Shown here piece by piece: positions 33,787 to 39,675 of a stretch of DNA of 64,000 nucleotides. A program made the translations under genes and the position numbers. This stretch comes from Sphingopyxis sp. (GTDB taxonomy: Bacteria; Pseudomonadota; Alphaproteobacteria; Sphingomonadales; Sphingomonadaceae): positions 1 to 64,000 of the forward strand of contig JAEMRT010000008.1 in the NCBI GenBank assembly GCA_016463225.1, written 5' to 3'. Numbering within the stretch: position 1 is the stretch's first letter; each line of letters opens with the position of its first letter. The notes below the pieces were generated by a model. The model had not been told where the DNA came from and ran no database searches. It saw nothing but the letters and a program-made list of their open reading frames with translations.

Positions 33787-34500
33787 CTATTTCTTCGCCG
33801 TCCCGCATTGCACCGACCCGGCACCGACATTGCGTACGGTACACACCGGCTTGCCCAGCACGACCGTTTTCCCAACCCCGCGCGCGGTTACCGCGGCGGT
33901 CTTCACCGCGTGCAGCCTGTAGTCTCCTGCGCCTTCGCCATCGAAGGTGAGCATATCCACCTTCAACGCCCCGGCATCGAACATCCCGGCGCCAGACAGC
34001 GTCATCTGTGCCTGTTTCGCGGTACCGCCCAGCGTCATCGTGCCGTTGCCGATCATCGCGACCGACAGCCGGTCGGTCGCGATCGCACCCACAGAAAGGG
34101 TCCCGGGGCCGCGCAGGCCGATGGTCACGCGCGTTCCCTTCATCCCGTCGATCCGTAGCGACCCCGCACCGCCCATCGTTGCCGAACGAAGGTTCGCAGC
34201 GTTGATGCGGATCGTCACCGCCCCACGCGGCGCGCGGCGCTCTGTATCTCCGGCAAATTGACGCTGGCCGATCACCAGCCGCCCGTCGCGCGCCTCGATG
34301 GTCACCCGGTCGAGCGCGTCCTGCGGCCCGGTCGCGACCGCGCCGACCGGCGCGCGCGTCGTCACCTCTATTACATAATCGGCATTGACCTCGATCGCCT
34401 CGAAGCTGGTCAGCCCAAAGCGTTTTTCGGCCGCCGCGGCAGGGGCGATAGCAAGCAGGGCGACGGCCGCCAGCGCGGCGCTTCGGAGGACAAGGATCAT
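33787..34500 (-). CDS. GIN domain (DUF2807) periplasmic protein
   Basis: 237 residues: a signal peptide (cleavage near AAA-E25) and a right-handed beta-helix-like GIN/DUF2807 domain starting FEAIEVNADYVIEVTTR, with short Gly-rich repeats (GAGSLRIDG, GPGTLSVG, GNGTMTLGG, GAGMFDAGA). Members are exported and often sit beside sensors or sigma factors; function is unknown. The last segment GAGSVQCGT carries a cysteine matched by one in VCTVRN, likely a disulfide, and the same pattern ends its upstream neighbour. It lies 43 bases after that neighbour on the same strand. Confidence 0.85.
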   Translation of the reverse strand: MILVLRSAALAAVALLAIAPAAAAEKRFGLTSFEAIEVNADYVIEVTTRAPVGAVATGPQDALDRVTIEARDGRLVIGQRQFAGDTERRAPRGAVTIRINAANLRSATMGGAGSLRIDGMKGTRVTIGLRGPGTLSVGAIATDRLSVAMIGNGTMTLGGTAKQAQMTLSGAGMFDAGALKVDMLTFDGEGAGDYRLHAVKTAAVTARGVGKTVVLGKPVCTVRNVGAGSVQCGTAKK

Positions 34501-34543
34501 GGCGCCGCCTTACCCGGTCCGGGCAGGCGGCACCAGCACCGCA

Positions 34544-35311
34544 TTATTTGCAGGTGACCGACCCGGATCCCAGCTGGCGCGACGAACATTTCGCGCCGCC
34601 GCCCAGCGTCACGTCGCCCGACCCCATGATGCTCACCTCGGCAGTGCCGGTCGCCTGCGCCTCGACATTGCCCGATCCGGTGACCGACACCTCGAGCGTC
34701 TGGGCGACGAGCCCGTCGGCATCGATGTCGCCCGATCCCGTGACGCCATATTCGCCCGCGCCCACCGTGCCGCTGCCGATCGCGATATCGCCCGATCCCG
34801 ACACGCTGATGTCGGCACGCTTGCCGGTCAGTTTCGCGATCTTGAGGTCGCCCGAACCCGTAACCACCGCCTCGACCGCATCGCCGTCGACGCTGTCGGC
34901 GTCGATCGTTCCCGACCCGGTCAGGCGTACCTTGCCGAGACGCGGCATAGTAATGCTGATCTCGACATCATCGTCGTCGCGGCTCGAAAAGCGGAAACTT
35001 TCCCGCTTGCGCCCGATCGACAGCGTCGGCCCGTCGAGCTCGATCTCAAGCCGGTCGAGCACCGCCTGCGGTCCCTTGGCGCTGATCGAAAAGGCATCGC
35101 CCCGGCGAATGGTAACATCGTCGGGGCCGGCGACCTTGACCTCGGTAAAACCGGTCAGCGCGTAGCTTTTGGTGGTGACCGGACCCGCGTCGGCGGATCG
35201 GGTGGCCTCGCCGTTGCCCGGCTGGTCGCCGTCCTTGCGGTCGGCACCGCTGCACGCGGTGACCGTCATCGCCAAAGCCAGCGGCAGCACCGCCATCGTC
35301 CAGTTACGCAT
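34544..35311 (-). CDS. GIN domain (DUF2807) lipoprotein
   Basis: 255 residues with a lipoprotein signal (MRNWTMAVLPLALAMTVTAC, lipid-modified Cys20, Gly/Ser after it suggesting outer-membrane sorting). The GIN domain follows (YALTGFTEVKVAGPDDVTIRRG) with at least six regular GSGD/GSGT turns about 20 residues apart (GSGTIDAD, GSGDLKIA, GSGDIAIG, GSGDIDAD, GSGNVEAQ, GSGDVTLG), as expected for a beta-helix. It ends in GSGSVTCK with a disulfide-capable Cys pair. AAGGAGA lies eight bases upstream of the ATG, inside a perfect palindrome. It is downstream of the buf-sigF-nrsF operon on the same strand. Confidence 0.87.
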   Translation of the reverse strand: MRNWTMAVLPLALAMTVTACSGADRKDGDQPGNGEATRSADAGPVTTKSYALTGFTEVKVAGPDDVTIRRGDAFSISAKGPQAVLDRLEIELDGPTLSIGRKRESFRFSSRDDDDVEISITMPRLGKVRLTGSGTIDADSVDGDAVEAVVTGSGDLKIAKLTGKRADISVSGSGDIAIGSGTVGAGEYGVTGSGDIDADGLVAQTLEVSVTGSGNVEAQATGTAEVSIMGSGDVTLGGGAKCSSRQLGSGSVTCK

Positions 35312-35317
35312 CGCCAA

Positions 35318-35355
35318 TCTCCTTTGTGTATTACATGCATAATACACAAAGGAGA
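35318..35355. promoter_or_regulatory. perfect 15-bp-arm palindrome containing a ribosome-binding site
   Basis: TCTCCTTTGTGTATT and AATACACAAAGGAGA flank an 8-base centre. The minus-strand Shine-Dalgarno of the GIN lipoprotein lies inside the outer arm, six bases from its start. There is no U-tract, so it is not an ordinary terminator. It could be a repressor operator or an RNA hairpin that hides the ribosome site. Confidence 0.8.
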
Positions 35356-35372
35356 TGTTTTGTCCAGCGCTC

Positions 35373-36023
35373 CTACCAGCGCAATAGTGGCGCCAGCAGC
35401 ACCCGCCCGACGACGCCCGACAGCGCGACCGCCAGACCGTGCCACAGCGCGATATGCATCATGTCATTCGACGCGCAGTGCAGCGCGACGATCGTCGCGC
35501 CCGCGGCGCCCGCCGCAATGCCGATCACCCAGCCGGCGCGCGACGGCGACGTCGGCGCCCCGCCCTTCAGCCAGACGAACAGTGCCACACCGACGCCGAG
35601 GCCCGCCAGTACGCCCTGCATAAGGCAATGAATGCCGTTTTCGGGGTGCGCCGTTTCCATGGCCGCATGACCGTTGTCCATCGCCATGACGAACGCGGAA
35701 AAGGGCAGCGCGAGCGCTGCCAGCCCCGCCCATCGCCAGCCGCTGTAATCGCGGCCGACGCCGGGCAATCCCATCCGCAACGCACTCCACGCCGCGGCAA
35801 AACCCAGCGCGACGATCAGCCAAAAGGCGAGCAGCGGCAGCGGCGGCATCATCGCGCCATCGGCCAGATCGTGCCGCGGACCGACAAGCAACAGAAGCGC
35901 CGCTGCGCCTGCGAGCCAGCCGCCAGCGACCCACAAAGACCCGCGCGCGACGCGGCGCGGGCGCACGGGTTCGAGTTCGCCCGCCAGGTCGTCGATCAGA
36001 TTGTCGATCGATACATTCGTCAT
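35373..36023 (-). CDS. nrsF: NrsF (DUF1109) anti-sigma factor
   Basis: A 216-residue inner-membrane protein of about six helices belonging to the NrsF/DUF1109 family, which holds the cognate SigF-type ECF sigma factor inactive in Caulobacter and releases it under metal or oxidative stress. A cytosolic N-terminus (MTNVSIDNLIDDLAGEL) precedes the first helix. Conserved Cys and His residues on the membrane side are seen in ENGIHCLMQG, VALHCASND and MMHIALWHG and are likely the metal- or redox-sensing elements. It begins one base after the sigma factor stop and is the last gene of the buf operon. Confidence 0.88.
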   Translation of the reverse strand: MTNVSIDNLIDDLAGELEPVRPRRVARGSLWVAGGWLAGAAALLLLVGPRHDLADGAMMPPLPLLAFWLIVALGFAAAWSALRMGLPGVGRDYSGWRWAGLAALALPFSAFVMAMDNGHAAMETAHPENGIHCLMQGVLAGLGVGVALFVWLKGGAPTSPSRAGWVIGIAAGAAGATIVALHCASNDMMHIALWHGLAVALSGVVGRVLLAPLLRW

Positions 36024-36024
36024 C

Positions 36025-36546
36025 TCATTCGCTCTCAATCAATTGCGCGAGCTTTTTCAGCCCGCGATGGATATTCACCTTCACCAGCGACTCGCTCTGC
36101 CCGCAAATCTGCGACGCCTCGGCGATCGAGGCACCTTCGATCTTGACCAGTGTGATCGCCTGCGCCTGTCCCGCGGGCAGCAGGGTGAGCATGCGGTCGA
36201 GGCTGAGGCGGGCGTGGACGACCTCGTCCTCGGCCCCGACCGCCGCGTCGCCCTCGCCCAGCTCGACCTCGTCGCGCTGGCGGCGCAACATGTCGATCCA
36301 GCGATAGCGCGCGATCGCCGCCAGCCAGGGCAGGAACGGCCGGCTGCTGTCCCAGGTGGCGAGCTTGCGGTGCACCGACACCAAAGTTTCCTGCACCAGA
36401 TCGTCGATCTGGTGCGGCGCGATGCGGCGCGCAAAATAGCGCGCCAGCCATTTGCCAGAATCGCCCAACAGCGCGCGATAGGCGGCGCGATCACCGCGCT
36501 GCGATGCCGCCATCAACCGCGCCAGCGAAGGTTCGTCGATGCTCAT
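36025..36546 (-). CDS. sigF: ECF sigma factor, SigF-like
   Basis: A 173-residue group IV sigma factor with region 2 (DDLVQETLVSVHRKLATW, then FLPWLAAIARYRWIDMLRR for promoter melting) and region 4 (LLPAGQAQAITLVKIEGASI...SESLVKVNIHRGLKKL). Pairing with an NrsF-type antagonist directly downstream identifies the Caulobacter SigF-like group. Its likely promoter, GTAACC-N16-CGAAAC, lies in front of bufA, so the operon would be autoregulated. It overlaps DoxX by four bases (ATGA). Response to copper or other metals is inferred from the operon content. Confidence 0.9.
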   Translation of the reverse strand: MSIDEPSLARLMAASQRGDRAAYRALLGDSGKWLARYFARRIAPHQIDDLVQETLVSVHRKLATWDSSRPFLPWLAAIARYRWIDMLRRQRDEVELGEGDAAVGAEDEVVHARLSLDRMLTLLPAGQAQAITLVKIEGASIAEASQICGQSESLVKVNIHRGLKKLAQLIESE

Positions 36547-37001
36547 CTGCGCCGCAGCCTAGCAATGATTGCGTCGAGCGAGAACAGCCCGCCGCCGCGC
36601 ACGATCAATATCGCGGCCATCGCGACCCACAGCGAGTGGACGGGCCACCATGCATCGGGAAACACGAACAACTGTATCACCAGCGTCATCGCCAGCAACG
36701 CGCCCGCCGACAACCGCGTCGCCAGACCGAGCAGCAGCAGGATCGGAAACAGATGTTCGGCATAGGTGGTCAGCGGCACCGCAAGCGCAGGATCGAACGG
36801 CAGGCCGGAAAATTCCGACGCGAACAAATCATATTGCGCCGGGTCGATCTGCAGCACGCCGCCGTCGACAACCTTGGTCTGTCCCGATCGCCAGAACACG
36901 CCAGCGAGCGCCAGGCGCAGCAACAACAGCGCGATGGCTTCGGGGATGCGGCCCGCGGCCAGCACAACCCCGCGATCGTATAACGCAATTATCCGCTTCA
37001 T
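36543..37001 (-). CDS. DoxX family membrane protein of the buf operon
   Basis: A 152-residue inner-membrane protein with four helices and the DoxX entry RLALAGVFWRSGQTKV and AEHLFPILLLLGLATR. In other bacteria DoxX proteins couple to thiol or sulfur redox chemistry. In DUF2282/DUF692/DUF2063 clusters a DoxX gene is a usual fourth member (bufD), perhaps handling electrons or the thiol state of the peptide. It lies three bases after bufC and overlaps sigF. Confidence 0.88.
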   Translation of the reverse strand: MKRIIALYDRGVVLAAGRIPEAIALLLLRLALAGVFWRSGQTKVVDGGVLQIDPAQYDLFASEFSGLPFDPALAVPLTTYAEHLFPILLLLGLATRLSAGALLAMTLVIQLFVFPDAWWPVHSLWVAMAAILIVRGGGLFSLDAIIARLRRR

Positions 37002-37004
37002 CTC

Positions 37005-37700
37005 TCAAACCCTCTCGAACGCCCCGGCGGCGATCAGCGCCGCGACGGCGGCCCCGCCTTCGGGATGCCTTTCGGCGAGATGCGCGATGAGGTTACCGAG
37101 CGGCGCAAATTCGCGCGCCATGGCGAGCGCGGCGACATCGGCATCGGTGATCGCAAACAGCCGCACTTCGGCATTGGGCCGCGCGACGAGCAGCGCCCGG
37201 ACGTCGCGCGCAAAGCCGGGGTCGACGAGCGGCGCGATGGCGCGCGACAGCGTCACGACGCGCGTCGCCGGATGGCGCCGCACGACCAGCTGGAGCAATG
37301 CCGCTTCTTCGAGCCCAGCCAGATCGGCAAGCGTCAGTGCTGAAGCGTCGGCGGCGTGATAGCTTTCGAGCCACGTCCATTCGACGCGCGCCAGATCGGC
37401 CGCGACCGGATCGGCGAGCCAGCCCGGAAAGGCCGCCCCGATCCGCGCCAGCGACCGGCCCTCCGCACCGCCAACGTCGATGAAGGCGCGCGAAACGCGG
37501 TTGAACTCGGCGGCGCCCAGATATTCGCGCGTGCGGGGAAATGTGTCTTCGAGCGCGACCAGTCGCGCGTGCGAGATGGTATTGGCATGGATGCGCAGCC
37601 CGCGCAGCACTACGGCGCGGCCGCCCGCGAACAACCCGGCGGGCAGATGGTCGGGGCCGCGAAGCAGTGTCGCGGCGATCGCCGCTTGCGCTTCACGCAT
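37005..37700 (-). CDS. bufC: BufC-type partner protein (DUF2063)
   Basis: A 231-residue protein with the DUF2063 N-terminal domain (LRIHANTISHARLVALEDTFPRTREYLG, read in parts) and a helical C-terminal half. In characterised MNIO systems this partner is required for modification and binds the precursor's recognition segment, delivering it to the DUF692 enzyme. It overlaps bufB by eight bases, indicating equimolar production. No catalytic motif of its own is seen. Confidence 0.88.
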   Translation of the reverse strand: MREAQAAIAATLLRGPDHLPAGLFAGGRAVVLRGLRIHANTISHARLVALEDTFPRTREYLGAAEFNRVSRAFIDVGGAEGRSLARIGAAFPGWLADPVAADLARVEWTWLESYHAADASALTLADLAGLEEAALLQLVVRRHPATRVVTLSRAIAPLVDPGFARDVRALLVARPNAEVRLFAITDADVAALAMAREFAPLGNLIAHLAERHPEGGAAVAALIAAGAFERV

Positions 37701-38559
37701 CGACCGGCTCGCGCGCCAGCAGCGCGTCGGCCTTGGCCACTTCGGCCATCAGCGTCGCATAATCGGGAACATCGCTGTCCCATTCGACCAGCACCGGTTT
37801 CGGCCCGGCGCGGCGAAGAAAGGCCGCGAGCAGATCCCAACAACTGTCGCGCACGGATGATCCATGGTCGTCGATCGCAATCGTGCCGCCCATATCGTCA
37901 TCTTTACGGCTGTGTCCCGCAACATGGACTTCGCCGACCAGCGCCGGATCGAAAGCAGCGACCCATGGAGCCGGATCGCGCCCAAGGTTGAACGCCGACA
38001 CCTCGACATTGTTGATGTCGAGGAGCAGCCCGCACCCAGCGCGTCGGCACAGCTCGTGGAGGAAATCGACCTCGTCCCAATCGTCGCCGGCATAGGCCAG
38101 ATAGCGCGAAGGATTCTCGATCAGCATCGGCCGCCCCAAGCGGTCCTGCACGCGCCCGACTTCGCGCACAAAATGGTCGAGCGCCGCATGGCTGTATGGG
38201 ATCGGCAGCAGGTCAGGGAATTTGTCGCCCGGCCCGTTGCTCCAGCTGAGGTGATCCGACACCATCGCCGGTTCATAGCGGTCGCATAGCGCCGCGAGCG
38301 ATTCCAGCTCGCCAAGTTCGACCCCCGCCGCCGATCCCAGCGATAGCCCAACCGAATGGAAACTCAGCGGGAGATGGTCCACGATCGCGGTCAGCCAGCG
38401 GTGCGGAGGCCCGCCTGCGCCGAAGTAATTTTGGGGATGTACTTCGGCCCAGGCGGGCGGGGCACCCCGCTCCGCCGCCGCCAGCACGTCGGCATAATGC
38501 TCGGGCTTCAGCCCGAAGCCGGCGCGCTGCGGCAAGTCACGGAGCGGACGGGGGGGCAC
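37693..38559 (-). CDS. bufB: BufB, MNIO (DUF692) peptide-modifying oxygenase
   Basis: A 288-residue TIM-barrel enzyme of the multinuclear non-heme iron oxidase family (with MbnB and TglH). Candidate iron ligands sit in SFHSVGLSLG (His68), VSDHLSW (His103), LIENPSRY (Glu148), LLDINNVEVSAFN (Asp181, Asn183/184), GEVHVAGHS (His212, His216), DDHGSSV (His232) and VLVEWDSDVP (Glu259). The family oxidises cysteines of a substrate peptide; bufferin enzymes make thiooxazoles. A GTG start five bases after the bufA stop gives the family length, while the longer frame is antisense-like and lacks conservation. Confidence 0.9.
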   Translation of the reverse strand: MPPRPLRDLPQRAGFGLKPEHYADVLAAAERGAPPAWAEVHPQNYFGAGGPPHRWLTAIVDHLPLSFHSVGLSLGSAAGVELGELESLAALCDRYEPAMVSDHLSWSNGPGDKFPDLLPIPYSHAALDHFVREVGRVQDRLGRPMLIENPSRYLAYAGDDWDEVDFLHELCRRAGCGLLLDINNVEVSAFNLGRDPAPWVAAFDPALVGEVHVAGHSRKDDDMGGTIAIDDHGSSVRDSCWDLLAAFLRRAGPKPVLVEWDSDVPDYATLMAEVAKADALLAREPVDA

Positions 38560-38564
38560 TTGGC

Positions 38565-38858
38565 TCAGCTCTTTTTGGCGACCGGCTTGGCATTGCCCTT
38601 GTGCGCGGCCAGCGTGCCGCCCATCTTTTCGCAGCTGCCCTTGGCGACATTCTTCCAGGCGTTGCCCTGATAATCGACCGTCGACGTACCGGCGCAGCTG
38701 GTGCCCGGACCGGCGGCGCAATCATTCTTGCCCTTCAGCGACACGCCATAGCATTTTTCCTTGGCGCCATCGGCGGCGACGGCGGGCACGGCCACCGCGC
38801 CGGCGGCCATCGCGAGGACGGCCGAGGCGGCGAGCGACAGTTTCAGGCTATTCGACAT
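38565..38858 (-). CDS. bufA: BufA precursor peptide (DUF2282), bufferin type
   Basis: A 97-residue exported peptide: signal sequence (cleavage near VAA-D30), then a short mature part with four cysteines at 36, 47, 55 and 76 ([31 protein letters not shown]) and a Lys-rich tail. DUF2282 peptides are the substrates of the adjacent DUF692/DUF2063 pair. In Caulobacter such peptides, named bufferins, carry cysteine-derived thiooxazoles and bind copper in the periplasm. Here the cysteine pattern and YQGNAWK segment match that group. AAGGGAG precedes the ATG by eight bases. It is first in the operon, behind a SigF-type promoter. Confidence 0.92.
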
Positions 38859-38909
38859 AATGGATACTCCCTTGGAATATGGATGATGCGGGGGATGGCA
38901 TCGACAGGA

Positions 38910-38937
38910 GTTTCGCGGCCGATCGCCGGAAGGTTAC
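38910..38937 (-). promoter_or_regulatory. SigF-type promoter of the buf operon
   Basis: On the minus strand GTAACC (38937-38932), 16 bases, then CGAAAC (38915-38910). As I recall the Caulobacter SigF consensus, it is GTAACC-N16-CGAA. The leader to the bufA ATG is about 45 bases. No second copy was seen in the window. Confidence 0.72.
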
Positions 38938-39022
38938 GCCGGCCGTCGACGGGCCGCGCCATTTTGTCGCCACCTTCGGCGCGCAGGGGCGTCCTTTGCG
39001 ATTTCGACCGGAAAGCCAGACC

Positions 39023-39499
39023 ATGAGCGTAGCGTTTCGCCGCGAGGGCGACGACGAGCATAAGGAACCCGAATTCGAGCTGCCCATTGCGGTCGGTCCG
39101 AACTGGGTGACGCCGCGCGGGTTGCGACTGCTCGGTGAGGAAGTCGCGCGGCTGGAAGCCGAAATTGCGGCGGCGACCGACGAGGATGCGCGCAAGAAAT
39201 TGCAGCGGCGCTTGCGCTATTTCCACACCCGCCAATCGACCGCCGAGGTGCAGACACCGCCCAGCGATGGCAGCGTCGGCATCGGCAGCCGCGTGACCTA
39301 TCGGCTGGGGCAGGCCGAAAAGACGATCACCATCGTTGGCGGCGACGAGGCCGACCCGGCGCTGGGGTGCGTCGCCTTTTCGGCGCCGCTCGCCCGCGCT
39401 TTGATGGGCGCCGAGGTCGGCGAGAGCGTCGAATATCAGGACCGCGAGGATGCCATTACCATCGTCGCCGTCGCACCCGATCCGGAGACGCAGGCATGA
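39023..39499 (+). CDS. GreA/GreB-family transcript cleavage-like factor
   Basis: 158 residues. An N-terminal coiled-coil region (about 40-75, EEVARLEAEIAAATDEDARKKLQRRLRYF, read in parts) and a C-terminal GreA/GreB FKBP-like domain (VGIGSRVTYRLGQAEKTITIVGGDEADP...FSAPLARALMGAEVGESVEY, read in parts) are visible. A long acidic-basic leader precedes the coil. True Gre factors rescue backtracked RNA polymerase via acidic residues at the coil tip; here the tip AATDED keeps Asp-Glu-Asp. It overlaps the next small gene as ATGA. It is divergent from bufA with 164 bases between. Confidence 0.85.
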   Translation: MSVAFRREGDDEHKEPEFELPIAVGPNWVTPRGLRLLGEEVARLEAEIAAATDEDARKKLQRRLRYFHTRQSTAEVQTPPSDGSVGIGSRVTYRLGQAEKTITIVGGDEADPALGCVAFSAPLARALMGAEVGESVEYQDREDAITIVAVAPDPETQA

Positions 39500-39675
39500 A
39501 AGACAAGTTCGAACGCCACAAACAGCCGTGGACCCCGGCCGAAATCGACAAGCTCCACACACTGGCCAAGAAGGGCATGCCGCTGAAGTCGATCGCGAAA
39601 GCGCTGACGCGCAGCGAGGAATCGGTCAAGGCGCGTGCCAAGGCCGACAGCCTCCCCATCGCGAAGCTGCACTGA
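39496..39675 (+). CDS. small SANT/Myb-like helix-turn-helix protein
   Basis: 59 residues, start coupled (ATGA) to the Gre-like gene. The pattern WTPAEIDKLHTLAKKGMPLK then SIAKALTRSEESVKARA resembles a single SANT/Myb repeat or sigma-4-like tri-helix with a conserved Trp. DNA binding is likely, but its targets are unknown. Coupling to a transcription elongation factor suggests a related regulatory role. It ends seven bases before the flavoprotein gene. Confidence 0.75.
   Translation: MKDKFERHKQPWTPAEIDKLHTLAKKGMPLKSIAKALTRSEESVKARAKADSLPIAKLH

Follow-up and report, generated by a model that had tools for sequence, protein, structure and literature searches.

The window analysed here is a 64,000-nucleotide (nt) stretch of Sphingopyxis sp. 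DNA (GenBank assembly GCA_016463225.1, contig JAEMRT010000008.1, positions 1 to 64,000 of the forward strand), and the system in question is a run of six minus-strand genes at 35373..38858, with two copies of a promoter-like motif, P1 before the first gene and P2 inside the third. The six genes are a Buf1-type bufferin cluster plus an ECF16-type SigF/NrsF pair, that is, an extracytoplasmic function (ECF) sigma factor and its anti-sigma factor. A sequence-only reading of this DNA had proposed a bufferin-type cluster for a ribosomally synthesized and post-translationally modified peptide with its own sigma/anti-sigma pair; all six genes were confirmed and passed Pfam cut-offs. The same reading held that the system controls its own synthesis, in line with which the SigF consensus GTAACC-N16-CGAA is present both upstream of bufA and within bufC. 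In gene order, the features are as follows.

38912..38937, minus strand: P1, predicted SigF-type promoter of bufA, GTAACC-N16-CGAA; exact match, ending 53 nt before the bufA ATG
38885..38902, minus strand: predicted P1 leader hairpin, GATGC-CATCCCCC-GCATC, 9 nt past the -10 box
38565..38858, minus strand: bufA, DUF2282 (Buf1) precursor of 97 amino acids; Pfam DUF2282 (PF10048) 83.8 bits, cut-off 22.4
37693..38559, minus strand: bufB, multinuclear non-haem iron-dependent oxidative enzyme (MNIO) maturase with a GTG start; Pfam MbnB_TglH_ChrH 304.9 bits, NCBIfam MNIO_BufB 324.5 bits
37005..37700, minus strand: bufC, DUF2063 partner of PME type 1; Pfam DUF2063 45.6 bits, cut-off 27.2; its 3' end contains P2 and the doxX ribosome-binding site
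37071..37096, minus strand: P2, predicted SigF-type promoter within bufC, GTAACC-N16-CGAA; exact match, ending 69 nt before the doxX ATG
37011..37016, minus strand: GAGAGG, likely doxX ribosome-binding site, within the bufC 3' end
36543..37001, minus strand: doxX, DoxX membrane protein; Pfam DoxX 58.3 bits
36025..36546, minus strand: sigF, ECF sigma factor; Pfam Sigma70_r4_2 48.2 bits, Sigma70_r2 46 bits
35373..36023, minus strand: nrsF, anti-sigma factor (DUF1109/NrsF); Pfam NrsF 137.6 bits

The precursor, BufA, has cysteines at positions 36, 47, 55 and 76, all four invariant in 107/107 collected homologues, and a hydrophobic N-terminus with an AxA-like end which, read by eye, may be a Sec signal. 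Its score against NCBIfam BufA2 (NF050166) was 34.8 bits, under the curated cut-off of 60, and it is therefore not classed as BufA2. BufB exceeded the NCBIfam MNIO_BufB cut-off of 310 bits and matched the solved structure 3bww (E 3e-33) as well as MbnB chains (best E 1.6e-8). BufC scored 21.8 bits against NCBIfam HvfC, under the cut-off of 142, and NrsF, although it passed Pfam NrsF, reached 51.1 bits against NCBIfam AntiSigF_NrsF, under the equivalog cut-off of 300; its two conserved cysteines (133 and 183) were both present in 86/86 homologues.

Spacing within the cluster is tight, as the sequence-only reading had said, with overlaps of 8 nt (bufB/bufC) and 4 nt (doxX/sigF) and gaps of 5, 3 and 1 nt between the remaining genes; a third overlap that it listed, a second one of 4 nt, does not exist. 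By family search, MNIO, DUF2282 and NrsF are each represented by a single gene in the source genome (5.6 Mb in 239 contigs, contamination 7.17%), and the closest named loci are from Sphingopyxis. The complete six-gene order was identical in 20/23 Sphingopyxis-type loci, the other three (L006, L011 and L018) being interrupted by contig ends, and bufC-doxX-sigF-nrsF lay on the same strand in 11/56 family loci from other genera, with bufA called upstream in 10 of these 11. Because the order repeats in Sphingopyxis-type loci and in other genera, it is not a product of chance.

Other arrangements were also seen. Two tandem DUF2282 precursor genes head one operon in L100, L105, L115, L188, L190 and L192. 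In split loci, such as L102, L104, L119 and L125, one DUF2282 gene heads doxX-sigF-nrsF and another, divergent, heads bufB-bufC; SigF-type motifs are often found on either side.

A SigF-type motif inside bufC

The SigF consensus GTAACC-N16-CGAA was mapped in Caulobacter by 5' rapid amplification of cDNA ends and lacZ fusions (PMC3511200; this and the other papers are cited from the accessible parts of their text), and the P1/P2 consensus agrees with that published for ECF16 (PMC8315932). At the P1 position the exact motif occurs in 20/24 Sphingopyxis-type loci, window included, with a single mismatch (GTAACT) in the other 4; among more distant bufferin loci (L024–L028), where the examined stretch yielded no sigF, the best P1-type motif had 3–4 mismatches (5/5). 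A scan for sigma-70-type promoters gave three weak sites, one of them before a DUF2807 gene, and none was used.

P2 was exact in 22/23 Sphingopyxis-type loci (L002–L023 and L029), L021 carrying a spacing-17 version slightly upstream. Further loci were chosen from two sets, 60 from 144 NrsF-bearing among 298 family genomes and 20 from 100 DUF2282-bearing among 289 class genomes, and six motif-selected stretches were added; each bufC was classed by whether sigF followed on the same strand, and near-copies were removed before counting. The exact motif was present in 37/39 distinct collinear loci, those in which bufC is followed by a co-directional sigF, versus 0/41 other bufC genes, and in 35/36 when three loci chosen for the motif (L188, L190 and L192) were excluded. 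The nearest approach among the 41 non-collinear genes was L138, with one mismatch. At the class level sigF was called in 5/20 loci (L168, L169, L171, L177 and L179), divergent in all five.

The strength of the case for P2 as a putative promoter is its base-level conservation within the collinear clade. At codon 202, 39/39 collinear rows have T in the third position, while the amino acid is Gly in 32, Cys in 3, Ser in 2 and Arg in 2; at codon 209, 37/39 have C there, with Ala, Gly, Asp, Ile, Ser or others as the amino acid. Both third-base entropies are among the lowest of the 231 bufC columns (gene median 1.52 bits). Were P2 no promoter, BufC would have to keep its GN-L and xE residues for protein reasons, with the DNA motif as a by-product, and indeed Asn203 is found in 38/39 and Glu210 in 39/39 collinear BufC proteins, and the collinear clade possesses its own BufC type. 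Protein constraint is, however, unable to fix these bases, because residues 202 and 209 vary while the codon bases stay, codon 202 always reading xGT. In Sphingopyxis, Gly202 is encoded by GGT in 22/22 rows, yet just about 16% of the set's Gly codons are GGT. We regard the by-product explanation as highly improbable. If P2 is instead a promoter, GT-AAC-C and C-GAA would be preserved as DNA even as the protein changes, so that the Asn-Leu and Glu of BufC would be kept only where the promoter is needed. Further towards the 3' end, beside the likely doxX ribosome-binding site, the Arg230 codon is AGG in 16/16 rows with Arg there, AGG being otherwise a rare Arg codon in the set.

The sequence-only reading had taken the gene overlaps and short gaps as the mark of a single message. 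The spacing does favour one transcript from P1, with the internal motif inactive or marginal, and read-through from P1 is possible; the conserved internal SigF motif nevertheless argues for a second start serving doxX-sigF-nrsF. Since the bases of P2 stay constant even where the amino acids that they encode differ, a single message is probably not the whole output of the six genes. Across about ten genera P2 is under purifying selection at the level of its bases, the Caulobacter sigF operon has its own SigF-type promoter (PMC3511200), and many family loci without bufC upstream have the motif directly before sigF, all of which speak against a transcript from P1 only, an arrangement that we consider unlikely.

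Several points weigh against P2 as an internal promoter. Two collinear loci depart from the exact motif, L190 by one mismatch and L021 by its shifted position. Codon shuffles that kept the protein and the codon usage do favour P2, the motif arising in 2.8% of trials on average (1.02 expected over the 37 rows that have it), but they were run on rows that had been selected for carrying it. In a quick BufB tree (64 rows, most Sphingopyxis rows omitted) the collinear loci group as a single clade (support 100), so the contrast between bufC genes with and without P2 amounts to one evolutionary event; the only non-collinear entry among them comes from L011, where an additional bufC-like frame is paired with the same bufB. 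Finally, it is entirely from comparative evidence that we infer the activity of P1 and P2. A repeated independent origin of the collinear order was also considered and is unsupported, given the single clade.

A probable hairpin in the bufA leader

Leaders were collected by requiring a motif no more than one mismatch from the consensus and a bufA stop 250–420 nt downstream. Between +5 and +40 after the -10 box, the mean folding z-score of 64 bufA leaders was -2.09, and that of the following 35 nt was +0.43; the means elsewhere were -0.64 (32 P2 leaders) and -0.05 (25 sigF-promoter leaders). Stems of at least 5 pairs starting 5–13 nt after the -10 box were found in 37/56 distinct leaders, against a mean of 9.7 and a maximum of 16 in 200 shuffles, and stems of at least 6 pairs in 22/56 (shuffles: mean 3.0, maximum 7). 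Among sigF-promoter leaders, 2/25 had stems of at least 5 pairs and 1/25 of at least 6. The hairpin is not universal: averaged per genus (25 genera), stems occur in 57% of leaders versus 22% expected. The idea that it forms part of every SigF promoter was dropped on the stem counts of the sigF-promoter leaders (the 2/25 above, and 4/26 with 5.4 expected) and the P2 leaders (19/35, 14.4 expected).

An inverted repeat in this position might also be a DNA operator for a dimeric regulator and not an RNA hairpin. The arms GATGC/GCATC are nearly constant within Sphingopyxis, as expected of an operator; between genera, however, the arm sequences vary with pairing maintained, and each of the first five stem levels shows five or six standard pair types, a count that was made on stems found by the same search and hence only leans towards pairing. 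We consider an operator rather unlikely, and favour an RNA hairpin that probably stabilizes the bufA mRNA.

Rfam gave three sub-threshold matches over 35000–39500, RF03394 twice on a palindrome at 35317–35356 and RF00457 once, and none at P1, the leader or P2. The palindrome is a perfect 17-bp inverted repeat with a 6-nt centre, placed between nrsF and a DUF2807 gene and overlapping the likely ribosome-binding site of the latter. A similar GTGT..TTA / TAA..ACAC repeat lies at the same place in 14 Sphingopyxis-type loci examined, and because of this recurrence it is likely to serve the DUF2807 pair as an operator or as a switch for translation. The pair itself, two tandem DUF2807 (head GIN domain) genes at 33787–35311 on the minus strand, comes after the bufferin operon; it is found downstream of nrsF in many, though not all, Sphingopyxis-type loci.

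The predicted SigF regulon

The same SigF probably also drives four genes outside the cluster. Six of the eight exact N16 motifs in the source genome are P1, P2 or sites upstream of these genes:

gor: motif upstream; TIGR01424, 614.2 bits
egtB: motif upstream; TIGR03440, 579.2 bits
msrA: motif upstream; TIGR00401, 141.7 bits; start codon uncertain
YHS gene: motif upstream; NF041384, 135.5 bits; under the Pfam YHS cut-off

The gor-type motif (GTAACCACATA) was present in 12/14 genus genomes with NrsF and 0/4 without, and the egtB-type motif (GTAACCATA) in 13/14 and 0/4; both types were assigned by promoter sequence, the gene itself being read in 6 gor, 5 egtB, 3 msrA, 2 YHS and 2 cytochrome b561 cases. 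In 13 genus genomes together, the motif occurs 127 times versus 77 for the reversed control pattern. Against this prediction stands the source genome, in which the motif shows no excess over its reversed pattern (19 versus 33 at spacings 15–17; 8 versus 13 for exact motifs at spacing 16), as do two genomes with NrsF, G224 and G305, that have no exact gor-type motif, G305 having no egtB type either. As a genome-wide excess was not found, the regulon claim is built on the place and conservation of the motifs.

Motifs upstream of gor, egtB and msrA raise the possibility that oxidants or thiol stress, rather than copper, are the main signal and that the peptide belongs, as one branch, to a broader regulon for thiol protection; ECF16 regulons elsewhere have Msr genes in common (PMC8315932). 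Against this, copper induces the SigF regulon in Caulobacter and a sigF mutant is copper-sensitive (PMC8224329), and we hold thiol stress as the main signal to be possible rather than probable. Copper, the metal named in the sequence-only reading, is the best inducer by homology (PMC8224329), but induction may not be specific to copper, because Caulobacter SigF responds to chromate and cadmium as well (PMC3511200).

Exact SigF motifs are clustered in two Sphingopyxis genomes, 9 in about 29 kb (L188–L189, G302:C23) and 6 in about 24 kb (L190–L191, G300:C17). As judged by eye, the motifs surround a second set of bufferin, sigF and nrsF genes, along with small proteins of a Cys-rich or CBS-like kind, and the clusters may be a mobile SigF-controlled island.

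Proposed circuit and known relatives

We consider it very likely that the locus is a Buf1-type operon under its own ECF16-type SigF with two start sites, P1 and P2. Gene content, the motifs with their conservation and place, and the hairpin enrichment are direct observations, and from them we infer the promoter activity, inducer, chemistry, mRNA role and dynamic steps of the following scheme. By analogy with Caulobacter, NrsF would keep SigF at the membrane until copper or thiol-reactive stress on its two cysteines released the sigma factor. Freed SigF would fire P1 to give bufA-bufB-bufC, with the remaining genes reached through read-through, and would also fire P2 within bufC to give doxX-sigF-nrsF alone. 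BufB and BufC would, as for Caulobacter Buf1, oxidize precursor cysteines, probably the central two, to copper-binding thiooxazoles, and on the same analogy the modified BufA would be exported to the periplasm. Through P2 the sigma and anti-sigma factors would be made independently of the peptide genes, with positive feedback, and NrsF, the last gene in line, would restore the brake.

We further think it likely that, in this sphingomonad clade, a regulator promoter embedded in bufC dictates part of BufC and, together with the structure-conserved leader hairpin, creates a two-start, self-amplifying circuit for copper and thiol stress that adjusts the output of the peptide and that of the regulators independently. 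A promoter retained within a biosynthetic gene across the depth of a bacterial family would mean one DNA stretch with two roles, separable by silent changes, and would probably surprise specialists in bufferins and ECF sigma factors while being easily tested. The regulon (bufferin, glutathione reductase, ergothioneine synthase EgtB, MsrA and YHS protein), if true, couples copper trapping to thiol and methionine repair in sphingomonads. Bufferins count among the largest families of peptides made by MNIOs, and the setting of their dose is little explored.

In kind, neither the peptide nor its likely chemistry nor its control is new. Buf1 carries Cys-derived thiooxazoles, with the central cysteines modified and the outer two disulphide-linked, and sequesters copper in the periplasm (PMC12452194). 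Bufferins reportedly lose mass at each modified Cys and absorb near 305 nm. The sequence-only reading had described a secreted peptide; the Buf1 literature instead gives Sec export and retention in the periplasm, the homologues not being released (PMC12452194). It had also called the modification undescribed in this lineage, which was too strong because Caulobacter Buf1, its SigF/NrsF control and the thiooxazole chemistry, the last reported for the Caulobacter vibrioides homologue (PMC12452194), are already published. What looks new, in the literature as covered, is the regulatory layout, with a second promoter, for the regulators, written inside the peptide-maturation gene bufC: neither a bufC-internal promoter nor a leader hairpin was found in that literature, outside which the original bufferin paper (Leprevost et al.) falls.

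Among known systems, the Buf1 clusters of the MNIO survey have the same core of precursor, MNIO, DUF2063 and DoxX, with sigma factor and NrsF genes noted, and the accessible part of that survey mentions no internal promoter or leader hairpin (PMC12452194). The gig operons of Cupriavidus metallidurans and Legionella pneumophila, likened here by description only, are bufferin-type and answer gold and copper. Fontiphorin and the captophorins are 5-thiooxazole copper peptides made by an MNIO with a DUF2063-type partner, in a scheme in which the authors include the DUF2282 group, but their precursor is of a repeat-type Lys-Cys kind and not a DUF2282 domain (PMC12668002). Brucella BcrS/AbcS pairs an ECF16 sigma factor with a DUF1109 anti-sigma factor and has the consensus (T/C)GTAAC-N17-CGAA, equal in spacing to that found here; it differs in controlling a Met-rich peptide and Msr genes, with no bufferin genes mentioned in the accessible text (PMC8315932). 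The same six families are found in Caulobacter crescentus/vibrioides, as CC3254–CC3257 (Buf1, MNIO, DUF2063 and DoxX), sigF (CC3253) and nrsF (CC3252), with the same SigF consensus, the two NrsF cysteines and a thiooxazole-bearing, copper-binding product (PMC3511200, PMC12452194). There, SigF drives CC3254–CC3257 and CC2907–CC2905, NrsF regulates it negatively, and expression goes up when C131 and C181 are substituted (PMC3511200); in the accessible part of Table 1 of that paper the SigF targets include neither gor nor egtB, unlike the regulon predicted here. In Caulobacter, sigF-nrsF is a unit apart from the CC3254 operon, both having a SigF-type promoter of their own, whereas here all six genes share one direction and the second predicted promoter lies within bufC.

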